Assembly (NCBI GenBank): GCA_016284115.1
Contig: JAEEOD010000309.1
Coordinates: 1 to 6,129 of the forward strand
DNA from: Bacteroidaceae bacterium
GTDB lineage: Bacteria; Bacteroidota; Bacteroidia; Bacteroidales; Bacteroidaceae
Length of the DNA: 6,129 nt
Direction of reading: 5' to 3'
Shown here: piece by piece, positions 21 to 5,223 of the stretch
How the letters are laid out: the number at the start of each line of letters is the position of its first letter
Position numbering within the stretch: the first letter of the stretch is position 1
The notes under the pieces: generated by a model
The model's database searches: none
What the model saw: only the letters and a program-made list of their open reading frames with translations
What the model was told of the DNA's origin: nothing
Translations under genes and position numbers: made by a program

Positions 21-1010
21 TTAGCCTCCATTGTTGTTGTAGAAACCTCGGGTGCGACCGTAATTGCTGCTGTAATTATTAAAGCCACTTATGACTCCGC
101 CATTGTTATAATCCTCCACAGGTGTTGTCGGATTGTCATAACCTGGATTTGCTGGAGGGGTGTAATCTGAATTACCTGAGTGACCATTACCATCACCGAT
201 AGCAACCCCATGATCATGATCAGGATGAGTAGTAATAATGTCACTTGGCTTAACCACAGAATTAAGGAAATCCATGCCATTCTTAGAAATCCTATTGCCA
301 TACAAGTAAATGTCATAGTTGGGACTGCCCAATCCTTGCATGCCAGCCATACTGGCACCAATTTCCCAACGCTTGTTGCCCGACTTGCTGCGCTTAGGCT
401 GATAAGTTTTGGTTGATGCAGCAGATGGTGTTTGAGAGACTACCGGAACGGTTGTTGTATATTCAACATCTGACTCCTGTATCAGTTCCTCTTGCTTTGT
501 CTCCTGCACATCGTTCACAATTACAGTAGGGGGCAACTCGGCATCTATATGCTCACTTTCAGTTGCAGTATCAGGAAGTGTTTCAGCCATCAAGTCCTCT
601 TTTGCTACAGTTGGTGCTGTAGACAACAACTCAGAGATTTTCCGATTCCTAACCATCTGTTTAGGCTTTTGTGTCGCCATAGCCTCAGCTATTTCATTTT
701 TGGGCTCATCAATGTATGTAGGCAGTGTTTGTGTCTCAACGGTCTGCTCCTGAGCTACGGGTTTGGGCAGATTATTGTCATCCGTCAGCAAAAGGGTGCC
801 TGTGCCGATGGCCACAGCTACTATGGCAGCCGCAGCTGCTCCCCTCATCCATAGCGGTATCAAGCGGCGCTGGGTATCACTGGCTTTGTTAACAGGAACC
901 AAGCCGCGATGCTCCATCTCTCGCTGGATATCATCCAGCAGACCTTCTGGCGCAGGCTGCTCAAAGTCTGCGAATCGGTCTTGCATGTCTTTCATCCATT
1001 GCTCTTTCAT
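21..1010 (-). CDS. Putative membrane-anchored anti-sigma factor
   Basis: 329 residues. The N-terminal ~55 residues are charged and probably cytoplasmic, where they would bind the sigma factor. A basic stretch (R48, R49, R56) precedes one hydrophobic segment at about 57-76 (A/V/I/G/T/L-rich), then a long periplasmic part. Residues 80-210 are a T/E/P/Q-rich linker. Residues 213-227 (KRWEIGASMAGMQGL) resemble the first strand of the outer-membrane barrel domain attached to many Bacteroidetes proteins of this class, but no barrel follows. Instead there is a His/Asp patch (262-267), a Pro/Gly/Asn region and a Tyr/Asn/Gly-rich tail. No cysteine is present, so it is not a classical zinc anti-sigma protein. 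The gene overlaps the sigma gene by 4 nt (ATGA), which implies coupled translation. The anti-sigma role is inferred from operon position and topology. Confidence 0.75.
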   Translation of the reverse strand: MKEQWMKDMQDRFADFEQPAPEGLLDDIQREMEHRGLVPVNKASDTQRRLIPLWMRGAAAAAIVAVAIGTGTLLLTDDNNLPKPVAQEQTVETQTLPTYIDEPKNEIAEAMATQKPKQMVRNRKISELLSTAPTVAKEDLMAETLPDTATESEHIDAELPPTVIVNDVQETKQEELIQESDVEYTTTVPVVSQTPSAASTKTYQPKRSKSGNKRWEIGASMAGMQGLGSPNYDIYLYGNRISKNGMDFLNSVVKPSDIITTHPDHDHGVAIGDGNGHSGNSDYTPPANPGYDNPTTPVEDYNNGGVISGFNNYSSNYGRTRGFYNNNGG

Positions 1011-1603
1011 CTTGGTTCTTGTTTTTCAGTTACGTATTTTTTAATCTTCTTAGCCAGCATTTTCTTGGCCCTTGACAACTGTGAGATGGAGGTCGTCTCC
1101 TGTATGCCCAGCAGTTCTGCTATCTCTTTGTGAGTCCTCCCCTCAATGGCATACAGGTTAAATACTATCCTGTTGCCAGGCGGTAAGGCTCTTATCATTT
1201 GATACAACACATCAATTGGTATCTTTGGTAGGATACTCATATCTTCTTCTGGTTCCTCGCTGACGTCCGTCATCAACTTGTCGTCAAACACCACCAAGCC
1301 TTGTCGTCCTTTCTTTTTCAGGAAAGCCAATGACTCGTTCACTACAATCTGTCTAAGCCATGCTTTCAGTGAGCCTTCCTCTTTGTAATTGAAGCTACTG
1401 CCTTTTGTGAATATCTTGATAAAGCTTTCTTGAAGTGTGTCTTTTACATCTTCATAATCAATGATATATCGAGAGCATACGCTCGTAAGGTGACGTGCAT
1501 AACGGGCATACAACTCCCCCATCACCGAGGCATCGCCCCGTTGCAACATCTCAGCAAGTTCGCGCTCACTATGCTTCTGCAGGTCGCTCATATAGTCTGT
1601 CAC
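1007..1603 (-). CDS. ECF-type RNA polymerase sigma-70 factor
   Basis: 198 residues, the usual length for an extracytoplasmic-function sigma factor. The sigma-2 region spans about 28-97: LYARY at 31-35, DVKDTLQESFIKIF at 52-65 (core binding and -10 recognition) and AWLRQIVVNESL at 81-92. Sigma-4 spans about 132-190: ALPPGNRIVFNLYAIEG at 139-155, then the -35-binding helix-turn-helix HKEIAELLGI...SISQLSRAKKML at 158-183. The acidic linker (115-122) is typical. The chosen start is GTG at 1603, because AGAGGAG lies 5 nt upstream; ATG at 1591 (residue 5) is the alternative. It is first in an operon with the putative anti-sigma gene. Its 5' flank carries the 45-bp element also found upstream of the serpin, so autoregulation is plausible but not shown. 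Confidence 0.93.
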   Translation of the reverse strand: MTDYMSDLQKHSERELAEMLQRGDASVMGELYARYARHLTSVCSRYIIDYEDVKDTLQESFIKIFTKGSSFNYKEEGSLKAWLRQIVVNESLAFLKKKGRQGLVVFDDKLMTDVSEEPEEDMSILPKIPIDVLYQMIRALPPGNRIVFNLYAIEGRTHKEIAELLGIQETTSISQLSRAKKMLAKKIKKYVTEKQEPR

Positions 1604-1646
1604 ATCTTCTCCTCTGCAGGTCCCTTTCTATGTTCTTTCATGTAAA

Positions 1647-1697
1647 TAAACAACCAAATCCTGTAACCTTGCATGATATTAACACTCTTTAACCTTG
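1647..1697 (-). repeat. Copy A of shared upstream element, before the sigma operon
   Basis: The 45-bp core (1653-1697) matches 3119-3163 at 44 of 45 positions; only 1674 (T, against A in the other copy) differs. Extending to 1647 gives 49 of 51. Read towards the sigma gene it contains CAAGGTTA twice, 26 bp apart, and GTTAA twice, 10 bp apart, ending in GGATTTGGT. Its near edge is 43 nt from the GTG start of the sigma gene. I infer a promoter or activator site. No TAnnTTTG box is visible between this copy and the sigma start, so the core promoter here may be of ECF type. Confidence 0.85.
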
Positions 1698-1728
1698 TGG
1701 GCACTCTGCAGGTAAGGTGGCTTTATAA

Positions 1729-1755
1729 AATAGGCGAGGACATACCCCGCCTATT
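1729..1755 (-). terminator. Terminator hairpin after the serpin gene
   Basis: AATAGGCG (1729-1736) pairs perfectly with CGCCTATT (1748-1755). After one mismatch, two further G-C pairs (1738-1739 with 1745-1746) leave a 5-nt loop. On the minus strand the stem is followed by TTTTATAAAG, a short T-rich tail. It lies 48 nt after the serpin stop codon, so it fits intrinsic termination of the serpin transcript. A related hairpin sits after the DUF4249 gene at 5269-5288. Confidence 0.7.
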
Positions 1756-1803
1756 GCTTCATTTACTTAGAAATATTACTAACTTAAAACCAGAATGTAA
1801 GTG

Positions 1804-3072
1804 TCAGTTACCATAGTAGCCAATGAATAATGGGCACTGTGTATTGTTCTCTACAATGGCATAGAAGAACGGACGATCAAGACGCATCTCAACATGCTCG
1901 GGAACTAAAAAAGCACCATTCCCCATTATATCTGTAATCGCTGCTGCTTCTGCTCCCTCTTCATCAATCTTGATGTATGTCTTTTGCTTAGCACCCAAAA
2001 CTGGGACTTCCAAATCATTGAACAACTTAATATCATCAACATAAAATTTCAGATTTGGATTAATGTTTTGCATATATGGGAAAAGTTTGTTTTCCGTGTA
2101 TTCAGTTGTGAATTTCGGTATCCACAAACTTACATCAGTGAGCTCCCCATTAAGAGATTTATATGAGTCGACATTAAAAGTAGCAGGTATTGCATCTGCT
2201 AAATCTACTCCTTCTTTAGGTAAGAAAAGCAGCATGGTGAATGAATAATCTATAAATGGCAAATATGTAAACTGAAAAGCATCTGACTCCCCATAATATG
2301 AGATTTTCTTTTGAAACATCATATCGACGTCTTCAGTCTTGCCATCAGCATAATTAAAGGGTTCTTTCTTTGTCATTGATGGTGAGAATTCTTCATTCCA
2401 TCTAGCCCTGAAATACACAGCATTCATCAAGTGAAACAAGTCTAATGGGTCAGTTCTTTCTATCATCTTTGTTATTCTATTCTCTGTCTTTTCTGCACAC
2501 CATGAATTGATGACGTCCTTGGTCTTAGGATCGCTGAAATCCACGCTTTCAGTTTTCGCATCATAGTTATTCTTTAGAAGTGATGTGAAGTCCTTGTTCA
2601 CATCTCCATTCTTAGTGTACCAAAAAGAATTAGCACTCTTAAACGTAACAATCTCGTCAGCTTTCTCGATGCCTGTCATCATGGTTTGGAAGAAGTCGTT
2701 GATTTGCTCCTTGGTGAAGTTCTCCAGTCCCATGGTCTTGAGCACCTCTTTCAAGGTCTCACCCTCCAAGCCGTTGATGAACATACCCAGGTCAACCTCC
2801 AGGCTGATTGGGGATATCATCAAGTTATCACCTTCTTTACGGTTTACATACACCTCCTTGAACAGCTTCCAAGAGAATTCCTGCAACCTGGCATTGATGG
2901 CCTGCTGCGTCTCGCTCAGCTCCACAGGCTTATAGCTGTGCCTTGTCACTGGTTCTTCTGGTTTAGGTTCGTAAGGCTTATCAATATCAATTACATCATC
3001 TTTGCTGCTGCAACTCCACATGCAGAGGGAAGCCATACATCCAATCAATAATGTCTTTGCTTTCATAGTCAT
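1804..3072 (-). CDS. Serpin-family protease inhibitor, lipoprotein
   Basis: 422 residues from ATG 3072, or 420 from ATG 3066 (MKAKTLL), which is the better-looking signal peptide start. A short hydrophobic signal ends in a lipobox-like MWSC with C21 as the lipidated residue. The next residues, S-S-K-D-D, resemble the acidic lipoprotein export signal of Bacteroidetes, so surface display is plausible. The serpin fold is complete: NLMISPISLEVDLGM (83-97), NAVYFRARWNEEF (217-229) and DRPFFYAIVEN near the C terminus. The reactive-centre loop (about 373-400) starts with the hinge EEGAEAAAIT, small residues as in inhibitory serpins. It is about 3 residues longer than alpha-1-antitrypsin's, so P1 is uncertain; candidates lie in G386-AFLV390, small or hydrophobic, which would suit elastase- or chymotrypsin-like targets. 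Miropin of Tannerella forsythia is a known Bacteroidetes precedent. The upstream element is shared with the sigma operon. Confidence 0.95.
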   Translation of the reverse strand: MTMKAKTLLIGCMASLCMWSCSSKDDVIDIDKPYEPKPEEPVTRHSYKPVELSETQQAINARLQEFSWKLFKEVYVNRKEGDNLMISPISLEVDLGMFINGLEGETLKEVLKTMGLENFTKEQINDFFQTMMTGIEKADEIVTFKSANSFWYTKNGDVNKDFTSLLKNNYDAKTESVDFSDPKTKDVINSWCAEKTENRITKMIERTDPLDLFHLMNAVYFRARWNEEFSPSMTKKEPFNYADGKTEDVDMMFQKKISYYGESDAFQFTYLPFIDYSFTMLLFLPKEGVDLADAIPATFNVDSYKSLNGELTDVSLWIPKFTTEYTENKLFPYMQNINPNLKFYVDDIKLFNDLEVPVLGAKQKTYIKIDEEGAEAAAITDIMGNGAFLVPEHVEMRLDRPFFYAIVENNTQCPLFIGYYGN

Positions 3073-3086
3073 GCTAGTTTATTACA

Positions 3087-3116
3087 CAAAGTTAGTTTCT
3101 TTATCTGTCTATTAAA
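3087..3116 (-). promoter_or_regulatory. Candidate Bacteroidetes promoter for the serpin gene
   Basis: On the minus strand TAACTTTG (3087-3094) matches the -7 consensus TAnnTTTG exactly. TTTA (3113-3116), 18 nt upstream, is a near match to the -33 TTTG; a true TTTG in the shared element is 26 nt away, which is too far. Transcription from here would leave a very short leader before ATG 3072 or 3066. The sigma operon has no such box, so the serpin may have both a housekeeping promoter and input from the shared element. Confidence 0.55.
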
Positions 3117-3163
3117 CTACCAAATCCTGTAACCTTGCAAGATATTAACACTCTTTAACCTTG
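3113..3163 (-). repeat. Copy B of shared upstream element, before the serpin
   Basis: The 45-bp core (3119-3163) matches 1653-1697 with one substitution, at 3140. The match extends to 3113 with one more mismatch (3118). The near edge is 40 nt from ATG 3072 (46 nt from ATG 3066), almost the same spacing as copy A to the sigma start. Inner motifs towards the gene: CAAGGTTA, GTTAA-N5-GTTAA and GGATTTGGT. Copies A and B are in the same orientation and flank the serpin gene. Confidence 0.85.
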
Positions 3164-3181
3164 CACTATTAATATACAACA

Positions 3182-3209
3182 GCAGCACCCACGGGGTAGT
3201 GGATGCTGC
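3182..3209 (-). terminator. Hairpin after the MBL-fold lipoprotein gene
   Basis: An 11-bp stem with one mismatch is formed by 3182-3192 (GCAGCACCCAC) and 3199-3209 (GTGGATGCTGC), with loop GGGGTA. It lies 59 nt after the MBL gene stop. On the minus strand it is followed by TGTTGTATATT, only moderately T-rich, so it may be a terminator or a 3'-end stabilising hairpin. Confidence 0.55.
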
Positions 3210-3268
3210 CGGGTTTATTTGTTGAAATTTACAGTGATGGCCGTAAAGACCACCGCAGTGGCTCTCCT

Positions 3269-4201
3269 TTACTTCAGCAATTCAAGTTCTAGACCGCGCT
3301 GTGTTCTGGTCAGGTTGCCCATGCCAGGATAAGGCACGTGCATGCCTGCCATTGTGAGGCCTTGGCTCTCCAGCCAGTTCAGCACTTGGGCACGGCTCTC
3401 TGCAGCCTTTACTGGATTAATGTCATGGCGTGTAGGTATCTCAGGATGTGGCACCTGCACGGTGGGGAAGTTAATCAGGTCGCCCCATATAAACAGCTTG
3501 CTGCCGCCATTCTCTACCAGGTAGCAGGTATGTCCCGGTGTGTGACCATAGCTGGCTATGCTCTTTACGCCAGGTATCAGTTCTTCCATCTTCTCTGCCT
3601 GCTGTGGCTCAAACAGGTGCAGCTTGTCCTTGTAAGCCTCTACCACAGCCTGTGCGCCTGCAAAGCCGCGCTGCTGTCCCTCGGGCAGTGAAGCCTGTAT
3701 CTTCTTGTCGGTCCAGTAAGCCACCTCTTTCTTTGAGATGTACAGCTCAGCATTAGGGAACACCCGCTGTCCGTCCTTCATCAGTCCGCCTATATGGTCG
3801 CCATGCATGTGCGTCAGCAGCACCATGTCCACCTGCTCAGGACTGATGCCCTCCTTAGCCAGGTTCTCCACCAGATGAAATCCCATGCCGCTATCCACTA
3901 ATATGTTCTTGCCGTTCAGTTTCAGCAGGAAGATGTTGAATGCACCACCAGCCTTGCCCGTAGGTACAAACTCCTTGATGATTTCCTCCGATGCCCCAAC
4001 CAGCACGCTCGGGTCACCCGTGTTCTGTCCGTCGCTCAGCAGCACTACCTCCGTACTGCCCAGCGGGTAGTGGTAGATCAGCTGTTCTGTCTCATTATCA
4101 CTTTGTTCAGTTGCCACGCTCTCGCTCTGGCTTGCTTTCTGCTTGCAGCCCTGCAGGCAGAGTAGGCCCATCACCAGGGCCATGATCCATGCTCTTTTCA
4201 T
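3269..4201 (-). CDS. Metallo-beta-lactamase-fold hydrolase, lipoprotein
   Basis: 310 residues. The signal peptide MKRAWIMALVMGLLCLQGC ends in the lipobox LQGC with lipidated C19, followed by a Ser/Glu/Gln linker to about residue 40; the protein should be membrane-anchored and face the periplasm or surface. The catalytic fold spans about 50-305. Zinc ligands are all visible: HMHGDH at 131-136 (H131, H133, D135, H136), GHTPGHT at 219-225 (H224 the likely ligand), D241 in WGDLIN, and H288 in AGMHVPYPGMG. Two metal ions are therefore expected. The overall pattern resembles the AHL-lactonase-like branch of the superfamily, but substrates there are diverse (lactones, phosphodiesters, organophosphates, beta-lactams), so I assign no substrate. 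It is a single-gene unit, divergent from the toxin-antitoxin pair. Its coding sequence is clearly more GC-rich than the serpin's (about 58% in a sampled 60-nt stretch). Confidence 0.92.
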   Translation of the reverse strand: MKRAWIMALVMGLLCLQGCKQKASQSESVATEQSDNETEQLIYHYPLGSTEVVLLSDGQNTGDPSVLVGASEEIIKEFVPTGKAGGAFNIFLLKLNGKNILVDSGMGFHLVENLAKEGISPEQVDMVLLTHMHGDHIGGLMKDGQRVFPNAELYISKKEVAYWTDKKIQASLPEGQQRGFAGAQAVVEAYKDKLHLFEPQQAEKMEELIPGVKSIASYGHTPGHTCYLVENGGSKLFIWGDLINFPTVQVPHPEIPTRHDINPVKAAESRAQVLNWLESQGLTMAGMHVPYPGMGNLTRTQRGLELELLK

Positions 4202-4258: not shown

Positions 4259-4353
4259 AGCACTTCTTCTGACAAAGGCTATAAGAATTCTGGTAATTTT
4301 TCTGCGTTATGCTGGCTCGAATAGACAAAATGCATTATTGAAAATTAATTTTT

Positions 4354-4365
4354 AAGTTAATTATT
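4354..4365 (+). promoter_or_regulatory. Operator candidate 1 of the toxin-antitoxin promoter
   Basis: AAGTTAATTATT, identical to 4408-4419. It abuts and overlaps by 2 nt the -33 TTTG at 4364-4367. An AATTAA (4344-4349) upstream forms an inverted repeat with its TTAATT. A protein bound here would interfere with polymerase. Autoregulation by the downstream XRE protein is the usual arrangement for such pairs and is inferred. Confidence 0.5.
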
Positions 4366-4395
4366 TGGATAATCGAAAGAATCAATTTACCTTTG
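4364..4395 (+). promoter_or_regulatory. Promoter of the toxin-antitoxin pair
   Basis: TTTG (4364-4367), 20 nt spacer, then TACCTTTG (4388-4395): exact matches to both the -33 TTTG and -7 TAnnTTTG elements of the Bacteroidetes primary sigma factor. Transcription should begin near 4400-4403, giving a leader of about 20 nt. This excludes the in-frame ATG at 4365 as the toxin start and supports ATG 4422. Confidence 0.8.
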
Positions 4396-4407
4396 TACGT
4401 AACTTAA

Positions 4408-4419
4408 AAGTTAATTATT
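4408..4419 (+). promoter_or_regulatory. Operator candidate 2 of the toxin-antitoxin promoter
   Basis: Second exact copy of AAGTTAATTATT, 54 bp from the first (about five helical turns) and just downstream of the expected transcription start. Its left half is also part of the inverted repeat AACTT-AA-AAGTT (4401-4412). The two copies bracket the promoter, which suits cooperative repression or looping by the antitoxin. Confidence 0.5.
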
Positions 4420-4421
4420 GC

Positions 4422-4904
4422 ATGAAACAGGAATACAGCATTGAACTCATAGAAGAGCATGAAAATGTCAATTTCTATAGCATTAAGATGAAAGATGAGG
4501 AACTGACAGAGTTGGAGGCCTTCTTTGAGAAATTCCCTGTAGGATGTGAATACGATAACGAGATTGACGTTATTGTTTCGTGGTTAGATCAGATAGCTGA
4601 GCGTGGTGCTTTGGAACGCTATTTCCGCCCAGAAGGCAAATATGGAGACGGTGTGGGTGTTATACCCATTGATGTAGGTAACAAAGATAGGTTGTATTGT
4701 TTGCGACTCTCCGATAAGATCCTTGTATTCGGCAACGGTGGTCTCAAGGATTCAAGGAGTTGGCAAGAGAGTGAGGAACTGGCTCCATATGTGAAGCTGT
4801 TGATTGATACAAGCAGGTTTATATCATCGCGAATAAAAGACGGAACAATAGTGCTAGTTGATAAAGAAATTGTAGGAAACTTAAACTTTACGAGATATGA
4901 ATAG
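4422..4904 (+). CDS. Putative toxin of an XRE-linked toxin-antitoxin pair
   Basis: 160 residues from ATG 4422. The longer in-frame start at 4365 is rejected because it lies inside the promoter. No signal peptide or membrane segment is seen, so it should be cytoplasmic. The N-terminal half (1-62) is acidic and mostly helical in character. The most conserved-looking part is GALERYFRPEGKYGDGVG (62-79), followed by LYCLRLSDKILVFGNGGLKD (91-110), which has the alternating strand pattern and 'R-L-x-x-K-I-L-V-F-x-x-G' layout of the last strands of RelE/HigB-fold mRNA interferases. I recall similar proteins beside XRE genes in other Bacteroidetes, but cannot verify this here. At 160 residues it is longer than typical HigB (about 90-110). 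The toxin-first order and 8-nt overlap with the XRE gene match higBA arrangement. Toxin activity is inferred. Confidence 0.65.
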   Translation: MKQEYSIELIEEHENVNFYSIKMKDEELTELEAFFEKFPVGCEYDNEIDVIVSWLDQIAERGALERYFRPEGKYGDGVGVIPIDVGNKDRLYCLRLSDKILVFGNGGLKDSRSWQESEELAPYVKLLIDTSRFISSRIKDGTIVLVDKEIVGNLNFTRYE

Positions 4905-5223
4905 AAATGGTATTTTGGAGGAAAGGCGTTCAAGAGTAAACCCTGAAATACGCCAGACAGTCTCATTGTCTTTTCGTATTGTTGATCGTATACACGAGGT
5001 CTTGCAGGCTAAAGGCATGAAGCAGAAAGATCTTGCTCAGAAACTCGGAAAGAGTGAGGCAGAGATTAGTAAATGGATGCGTGGCACCCATAATTTTACC
5101 ATTGATACATTGACTTCTATTGAGGTAGCACTTGATGCACCTATTATCGAAGTTTACCATCAACCCAAACCCAATGCTGAATACGAGTCAGAGCGTATGA
5201 ATGCAGCAGATTCCCTATCTTAA
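4897..5223 (+). CDS. XRE-family HTH protein, putative antitoxin
   Basis: 108 residues. A Cro/C1-type helix-turn-helix spans about 28-85: IHEVLQAKGMKQKDLAQKLGK with the turn around G51, and recognition helix SEAEISKWMRG (53-63), then FTIDTLTSIEVALD (67-80). The C-terminal 20 residues are charged and probably flexible. The gene starts inside the end of the toxin gene (ATGAATAG, 8-nt overlap), so the two are translationally coupled. By analogy with HigA it would bind and neutralise the toxin and repress the shared promoter, where the AAGTTAATTATT copies are candidate sites. HTH assignment is firm; antitoxin role is contextual. Confidence 0.85.
   Translation: MNRNGILEERRSRVNPEIRQTVSLSFRIVDRIHEVLQAKGMKQKDLAQKLGKSEAEISKWMRGTHNFTIDTLTSIEVALDAPIIEVYHQPKPNAEYESERMNAADSLS

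Follow-up and report, generated by a model that had tools for sequence, protein, structure and literature searches.

Why should a sigma factor operon and a serpin gene carry, ahead of their start codons, almost the same piece of non-coding DNA? The question is posed by a contig of a Bacteroidaceae bacterium (JAEEOD010000309.1), of which a stretch of 6,129 nucleotides (hereafter "the window", meaning this whole stretch) was analysed. The initial annotation had read the repeat as a shared regulatory input, in which an ECF sigma factor drives both its own operon and a surface serpin under envelope or protease stress.

Genes of the locus

The genes flanking the two copies of the repeat are listed below.

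21..1010, minus strand: predicted Dma-type anti-sigma factor, 329 aa, sharing 4 nt (1007-1010) with the sigma gene, stop at 21-23
1007..1603, minus strand: ECF sigma factor of 198 aa, with GTG as start codon and an ATG at 1591 as possible alternative, Pfam Sigma70_r2 and r4_2 and TIGR02937 above cut-off
1804..3072, minus strand: serpin, 422 aa, or 420 aa from the likelier ATG at 3066, PF00079 at 6.2e-77
3269-4201, minus strand: metallo-hydrolase-fold (metallo-beta-lactamase-fold) protein that begins like a lipoprotein; its gene immediately precedes the serpin unit

The sigma factor belongs to the ECF class, in that only sigma-70 regions 2 and 4 are recognised in it (PF04542, 43.9 against a cut-off of 24; PF08281, 58.8 against 25.7), a region 3 match is absent and TIGR02937 scores 88 against a cut-off of 42.9. 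Its placement among ECF21 (ECF21/Das-like) sigma factors would follow from the adjacent anti-sigma gene, the adjacency to an ECF sigma gene that characterises Dma proteins taking the form of the overlap of the two reading frames at 1007-1010. A Pfam search of the 329-aa product gave no match, and its residues 16-109 reach 26.2 bits on the NCBIfam antisigma model, under the cut-off of 100. An outer-membrane barrel domain is present in 25 of 28 proteins related to the anti-sigma factor, the other three being shorter and devoid of it. The reading frame ends 20 nt from the contig end, at a point where relatives of 90-98% identity continue into the beta-barrel, and its stop may be either genuine or an end-of-contig error. 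These closest relatives (P0242-P0246) are 513-517 aa long, apart from one of 449 aa. A structural model of P0242 (mean pLDDT 52.8) has helices at 2-34 and 54-65, the latter hydrophobic-looking, with an unstructured segment at 76-210, all at low confidence, and a barrel at 330-513 (pLDDT 65-89; best PDB match, OmpA); this modelled layout appears to be the anatomy described for Dma proteins in the available part of PMC13088901.

The serpin matches PF00079 with 259.7 bits against a cut-off of 27, and the position of ATG 3066 is the start in all 14 aligned relatives. A signal-like start and an invariant cysteine in the alignment of 15 proteins make it a probable lipoprotein, and the SSKDD that follows the cysteine resembles a surface-export signal of Bacteroidetes lipoproteins. 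In inhibitory serpins, small residues precede the variable reactive loop; a hinge of this type, DEEGAEAAAITD, is found here, with E375-A378, T380 and D381 invariant in the 15 aligned proteins and the centre of the loop varying. The protein may thus, judging from its sequence, reside on the cell surface and inhibit proteases there.

For the product of 3269-4201, the nearest NCBIfam model is AidB lactonase, which it matches below threshold (178 against a cut-off of 360). Further along the window, two adjoining plus-strand genes (4365-5223) have matches among the candidate defence families of PADLOC, one to PDC-M64B (4.9e-73) and the other to PDC-M64C with a helix-turn-helix domain (1.2e-46). An inverted repeat (4343-4359 / 4400-4416) lies near the start of these genes and may be an operator.

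The repeated unit

The following non-coding features precede the sigma/anti-sigma operon and the serpin gene.

1647..1697, minus strand: copy A of the repeated unit (core 1653-1697), upstream of the sigma/anti-sigma operon, from repeat search and position-by-position comparison
3113..3163, minus strand: copy B of the repeated unit (core 3119-3163), upstream of the serpin gene, from the same two analyses
1729..1755, minus strand: stem-loop after the serpin gene and before copy A, -17.4 kcal/mol
3180..3211, minus strand: terminator-like stem-loop after the metallo-hydrolase gene and before copy B, -24.1 kcal/mol

Copies A and B form the longest direct repeat in the window, with 49 of 51 nucleotides (96%) in common and a single difference in the 45-nt core (44/45). 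Since the next longest direct-repeat family reaches only 25 nt at 72%, a chance origin is excluded. Position-by-position comparison gives 10, 10, 9, 10 and 9 identities in successive 10-nt blocks inside the 51 bp and a background of 1 to 5 in the blocks outside. The near-identical 45-bp element with its extension to 51 bp, as first annotated, is thereby confirmed, as is the common orientation of the copies, both of which lie 5' of minus-strand genes. The spacing of 40-46 nt to a start codon that had been assigned to the 45-bp element holds for the 51-bp unit, which ends 43 nt from the sigma start (GTG 1603) and 40 nt from the serpin start (ATG 3072), or 46 nt if ATG 3066 is used; for the 45-bp core the distances are 46-52 nt. 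Two features went unmentioned in that annotation: the stem-loop preceding each copy and the resemblance of the downstream half of the unit to an ECF promoter. Since a stem-loop lies between each copy and the gene before it, the serpin gene and the sigma operon are apparently transcribed separately, with one copy ahead of each; in particular, the stem-loop at 1729-1755 suggests that sigma begins a transcription unit of its own.

Within each copy, CAAGGTTAAAG / CAAGGTTACAG form an imperfect direct repeat of 26-bp period, the upstream member of which lies outside the promoter core; CAAGGTTA is present twice per copy at a spacing of 26 bp.

The upstream 23 bp of the unit, which lie beyond the expected sigma contacts, are identical in copies A and B. 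Because this identity and that of the spacer exceed what a promoter needs, a recent duplication or conversion of the unit may be proposed, and its sharp edges likewise point to a recent copying event. It could then be argued that a promoter region was merely duplicated, or that a small repetitive element is at hand, with no shared regulation of consequence. This reading is very improbable. The unit does not behave as a dispersed repeat: a 41-nt element taken from it occurs in none of 399 genomes of the comparison family (described below) at up to 3 mismatches, and has no exact match in viral contigs. Moreover, its placement and its spacing to both start codons are those of a promoter, and distant relatives, considered below, keep both the pairing of sigma with serpin and a common core. 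Duplication and shared control are in any case compatible. Searches with the sigma factor and the serpin found no relatives in viral contigs, a plasmid search with window positions 1600-1800 gave no match, and the window has no Rfam match at the gathering threshold, so that a known RNA element is unlikely.

A predicted promoter within the unit

The downstream half of the unit resembles an ECF promoter, consisting of TGCAAGGTT, 14 nt and then TTTATTTACA or TTTAATAGAC. The boxes below were located with a matrix derived from other genomes, the -35 and -10 boxes of a copy being scored jointly.

1665..1673, minus strand: predicted -35 box of copy A (TGCAAGGTT), 12.2 bits jointly with its -10 box
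1641..1650, minus strand: predicted -10 box of copy A (TTTATTTACA), 14-nt spacer at 1651-1664
3131..3139, minus strand: predicted -35 box of copy B (TGCAAGGTT), 13.7 bits jointly with its -10 box
3107..3116, minus strand: predicted -10 box of copy B (TTTAATAGAC), 14-nt spacer at 3117-3130

From the predicted -10 boxes to the start codons the distance is 34-40 nt in both copies. The highest matrix score in the window belongs to an unrelated plus-strand site at 3071 (14.7), so that at the scale of the window the matrix is unspecific. A generic sigma-70 scan of 1500-3300 returned 5 sites where 4.5 were expected.

A 13-codon reading frame 5' of sigma was considered and dropped. Transcription from ECF promoters begins about 7 nt after the -10 box, and the ATG of this frame begins at the final base of the predicted -10 box, before the likely transcription start.

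The sigma–serpin neighbourhood in other genomes

Comparison genomes were drawn from the family of the genome of Prevotella sp. P5-108, presumably Bacteroidaceae by GTDB naming. Named protein relatives of the window genes are mostly labelled "Bacteroidaceae bacterium", and relatives of up to 99% identity for sigma and up to 90% for the serpin are known as proteins only, without their DNA. Since the closest matches in the searched genomes are 52% identical for sigma and 36-37% for the serpins, the comparison is one with distant relatives.

Among 110 sigma-anchored loci (80 + 30), at least 12 contain a serpin, a minimum since the flanks of the last 30 extend about 1.5 kb. They belong to Porphyromonadaceae, Paludibacter, Spirosoma (two), Spirosomataceae, Runella, three other Bacteroidota MAGs and three genomes of the comparison family. 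In the reverse direction, the best serpin of each genome (75 serpin-bearing among 278) was taken with up to 20 kb around it, many of these regions being cut by contig ends. Clade sigma genes, defined by a model score above 150, are found no more than 2 kb from the serpin, a zone holding 25% of the non-serpin bases, in 11 of the 75 loci and farther away in one (p=2e-6, an optimistic value as the loci are partly kin, with L173/L174 and L186/L213, for instance, coming from related species). For ECF sigma factors that match the clade model weakly, the excess is absent (3 near, 6 far, p=0.40); the model, built from the clade of the sigma factor itself, will overlook many other ECF sigma factors. 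The remaining 64 of the 75 serpin loci have no clade sigma within 2 kb. Three gene orders are found, in which the serpin precedes sigma, follows it on the same strand or is divergent from it; as the neighbourhood has been kept through repeated rearrangement, a functional bond between sigma and serpin is indicated. The proposed shared control of the two therefore gains support from comparison, serpins standing beside clade sigma genes beyond chance and in three orders.

The promoter core in other genomes

Upstream regions of the relatives share a common core, consisting of a TGCAAG- or TGCAGT-type box of 10 nt and, 14-15 nt after it, a TTTATAA-like box. The matrix was built from nine sigma-operon promoters of other genomes, aligned by eye when the serpin promoters were already known, and in seven of the nine cases a serpin lies no more than 2 kb away. 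In the 75 serpin loci, a score of at least 12 is reached upstream of 12 of 73 serpins as against 6 of the 785 other genes (p=7e-10) and, among serpins lacking a clade sigma within 2 kb, of 8 of 62 (p=1e-6), both p-values being optimistic in that matching loci often come from related species. At 14 or more, the counts are 9/73 and 1/785. With the 99th centile of 400 other genes as threshold, twenty column-shuffled matrices passed 0-5 of the 73 serpins and the real matrix 10. The other 61 of the 73 serpins score below 12. A regular expression for a CAAG/CAAC-type -35 box finds it in 36 of 117 distinct sigma upstream regions, a figure lowered in part by the frequent presence of another gene ahead of sigma.

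Strict patterns were then applied to the 399 genomes of the comparison family: GCAAGNTTN{14,16}TTNTANNRGCAG gave 5 matches and TGCAGTATTN{13,16}TTTATAANG gave 13, with one match for each reversed control. The first gene after the 18 matches is sigma in nine and a serpin in six (with sigma next in two); of the other three, one lies ahead of a lipoprotein-like gene with sigma and anti-sigma after it, one ahead of a small and unrelated lipoprotein-like gene, and one ahead of no gene. A unit with clade sigma, serpin or both thus follows 16 of the 18, six of which were promoters known when the patterns were written; 10 of the 12 new matches fit as well, though several of these are nearly the same sequence in related species. 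One genome has its promoter-bearing serpin and the located clade sigma on different contigs (C59 and C41, respectively). Neither strict pattern matches the two sites of the window, where the -35 box fits the first pattern and the -10 boxes depart from it; the strict scans thus show what such a promoter marks in relatives, namely sigma operons and serpins, and the window is tied to the core by the matrix only. Taken together, the ECF regulon with a shared promoter, as initially annotated, is supported by comparison on two further counts: a matrix from other genomes recognises both copies and is enriched 5' of serpins, including those without a nearby clade sigma, and strict patterns land almost only 5' of clade sigma or serpin genes.

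Divergent loci bear on whether both copies function. In L156 the core lies on both sides with differing spacers, in L068 it is also on both sides, and in L157 it is weak on the serpin side. It could also be that the sigma factor drives just one of the two, serpin or own operon, and that the remaining copy is a non-functional remnant; the differing -10 boxes of the window (TTTATTTACA and TTTAATAGAC) together with the lower score of copy A (12.2 against 13.7) lend this some weight. It is nevertheless unlikely, since both copies keep the -35 box, the 14-nt spacer and the 34-40 nt from -10 to start codon, and since L156 and L068 carry the core on either side, even if L157 does so weakly towards the serpin. 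The differing spacers of L156 also speak against mere duplication as the source of the shared core.

Alternatively, the 51 bp could be bound by a different regulator that activates or represses both genes, with CAAGGTTAAAG / CAAGGTTACAG as the candidate site and the ECF-like core coincidental. Such a regulator would account for the two occurrences of CAAGGTTA in each copy and for the identity of the upstream 23 bp, where no sigma contacts are expected, and a promoter of another kind might be sought in TAACTTTG (3087-3094, minus strand), 3' of the serpin copy, which resembles the housekeeping -7 box of Bacteroidetes. However, TAACTTTG has no TTG at the -33 spacing of such promoters; relatives, compared by eye, have the -35/-10 core in common and not the upstream half; and patterns made from the core only retrieve sigma and serpin genes in other genomes. 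A regulator of this kind is hence improbable, and recognition of the core by the sigma factor is the preferred reading.

Some further observations were made on these loci. Outside the comparison family (L008, L020, L043, L046, L055, L068 and others), sigma operons have a related core, GCAAC(C/G)TTT then CATC, which in L068 is found on the sigma side and the serpin side. In L270, a promoter-bearing lipoprotein-like gene ending in ...KFKYTPRK (5607-6296, minus strand), presumably NigD-like, precedes sigma, and the DNA 5' of sigma in L001, L003, L005 and L007 translates to C-termini similar to that of its product.

Proposed mechanism

Both copies are probably promoters read by the neighbouring ECF21/Das-like sigma factor, which would drive its own operon and the serpin. 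The sigma factor would contact the -35 box TGCAAGGTT and, 14 nt on, the -10 box TTTATTTACA or TTTAATAGAC, while the rest of the 51 bp would be shared since one copy derives from the other through a recent duplication or conversion event. The Dma-type anti-sigma factor, which in intact relatives should span from an outer-membrane barrel to the cytoplasm, would let the sigma factor go upon a signal; envelope or protease stress may be the inducer. With the freed sigma factor, RNA polymerase would transcribe the sigma/anti-sigma operon (positive autoregulation) and, separately from copy B, the serpin gene. The expected output is the inhibition of proteases at the cell surface or in vesicles by a lipoprotein-like serpin with an inhibitory-type loop.

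Relation to known systems and significance

According to the available part of PMC13088901, ECF21 sigma factors occur in Bacteroidota only and are encoded beside Dma proteins, and Das/Dma of Bacteroides thetaiotaomicron pairs an ECF21 sigma factor with a dual membrane-spanning anti-sigma factor. In B. thetaiotaomicron without Dma2, the most strongly raised transcripts include das2 (log2FC 4.54) and bt_1555-1557 (2.48-6.00); the function of the genes raised by this system is described there as unconfirmed (PMC13088901). The proposed autoregulation of the operon thus has published support in the induction of the das2/dma2 operon itself. The present locus resembles Das/Dma, as far as that account goes, in that the ECF sigma gene is directly followed by the anti-sigma gene, whose relatives have an N-terminal part, a membrane-type helix, a long tether and a C-terminal barrel. 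It differs in output: that account names vesicle production, polysaccharide-use genes and NigD1, whereas the gene that recurs next to sigma here, and its probable target, is a serpin. The word "serpin" does not occur in the main text of PMC13088901.

Miropin of Tannerella forsythia and the serpin of Bifidobacterium longum (PMC8233489, available part) share with the present protein the serpin domain and the inhibitory-type hinge, but no ECF-sigma control of bacterial serpins was found in the literature searched. A link between ECF sigma factors and serpins is reported in none of the matches listed, among them PMC8999054 and PMC8233489, and might conceivably be mentioned in the founding Dma paper (PNAS 2024). 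In the parts available, PMC12596196 does not contain the word serpin, PMC12071298 has no terms for bacterial serpins and PMC8980031 mentions serpin once. Nor does the literature listed hold anything on the control of Bacteroidota serpins.

A wider scheme may be entertained, albeit tentatively and as something rather doubtful at present: a Bacteroidota-wide ECF21/Dma relay could be a dedicated protease alarm, in which an outer-membrane-anchored anti-sigma factor reports surface proteolysis and the freed sigma factor induces a surface or vesicle serpin, closing a feedback loop, with a promoter code (about TGCARKNTTT, 12-14 nt, TTTATAA) marking even unlinked serpins as members of the regulon. A conserved link between sigma factor and serpin would provide one branch of the anti-sigma factors that reach the outer membrane with a testable role in controlling protease inhibition, and the short promoter signature could be used to list regulon members across many genomes.
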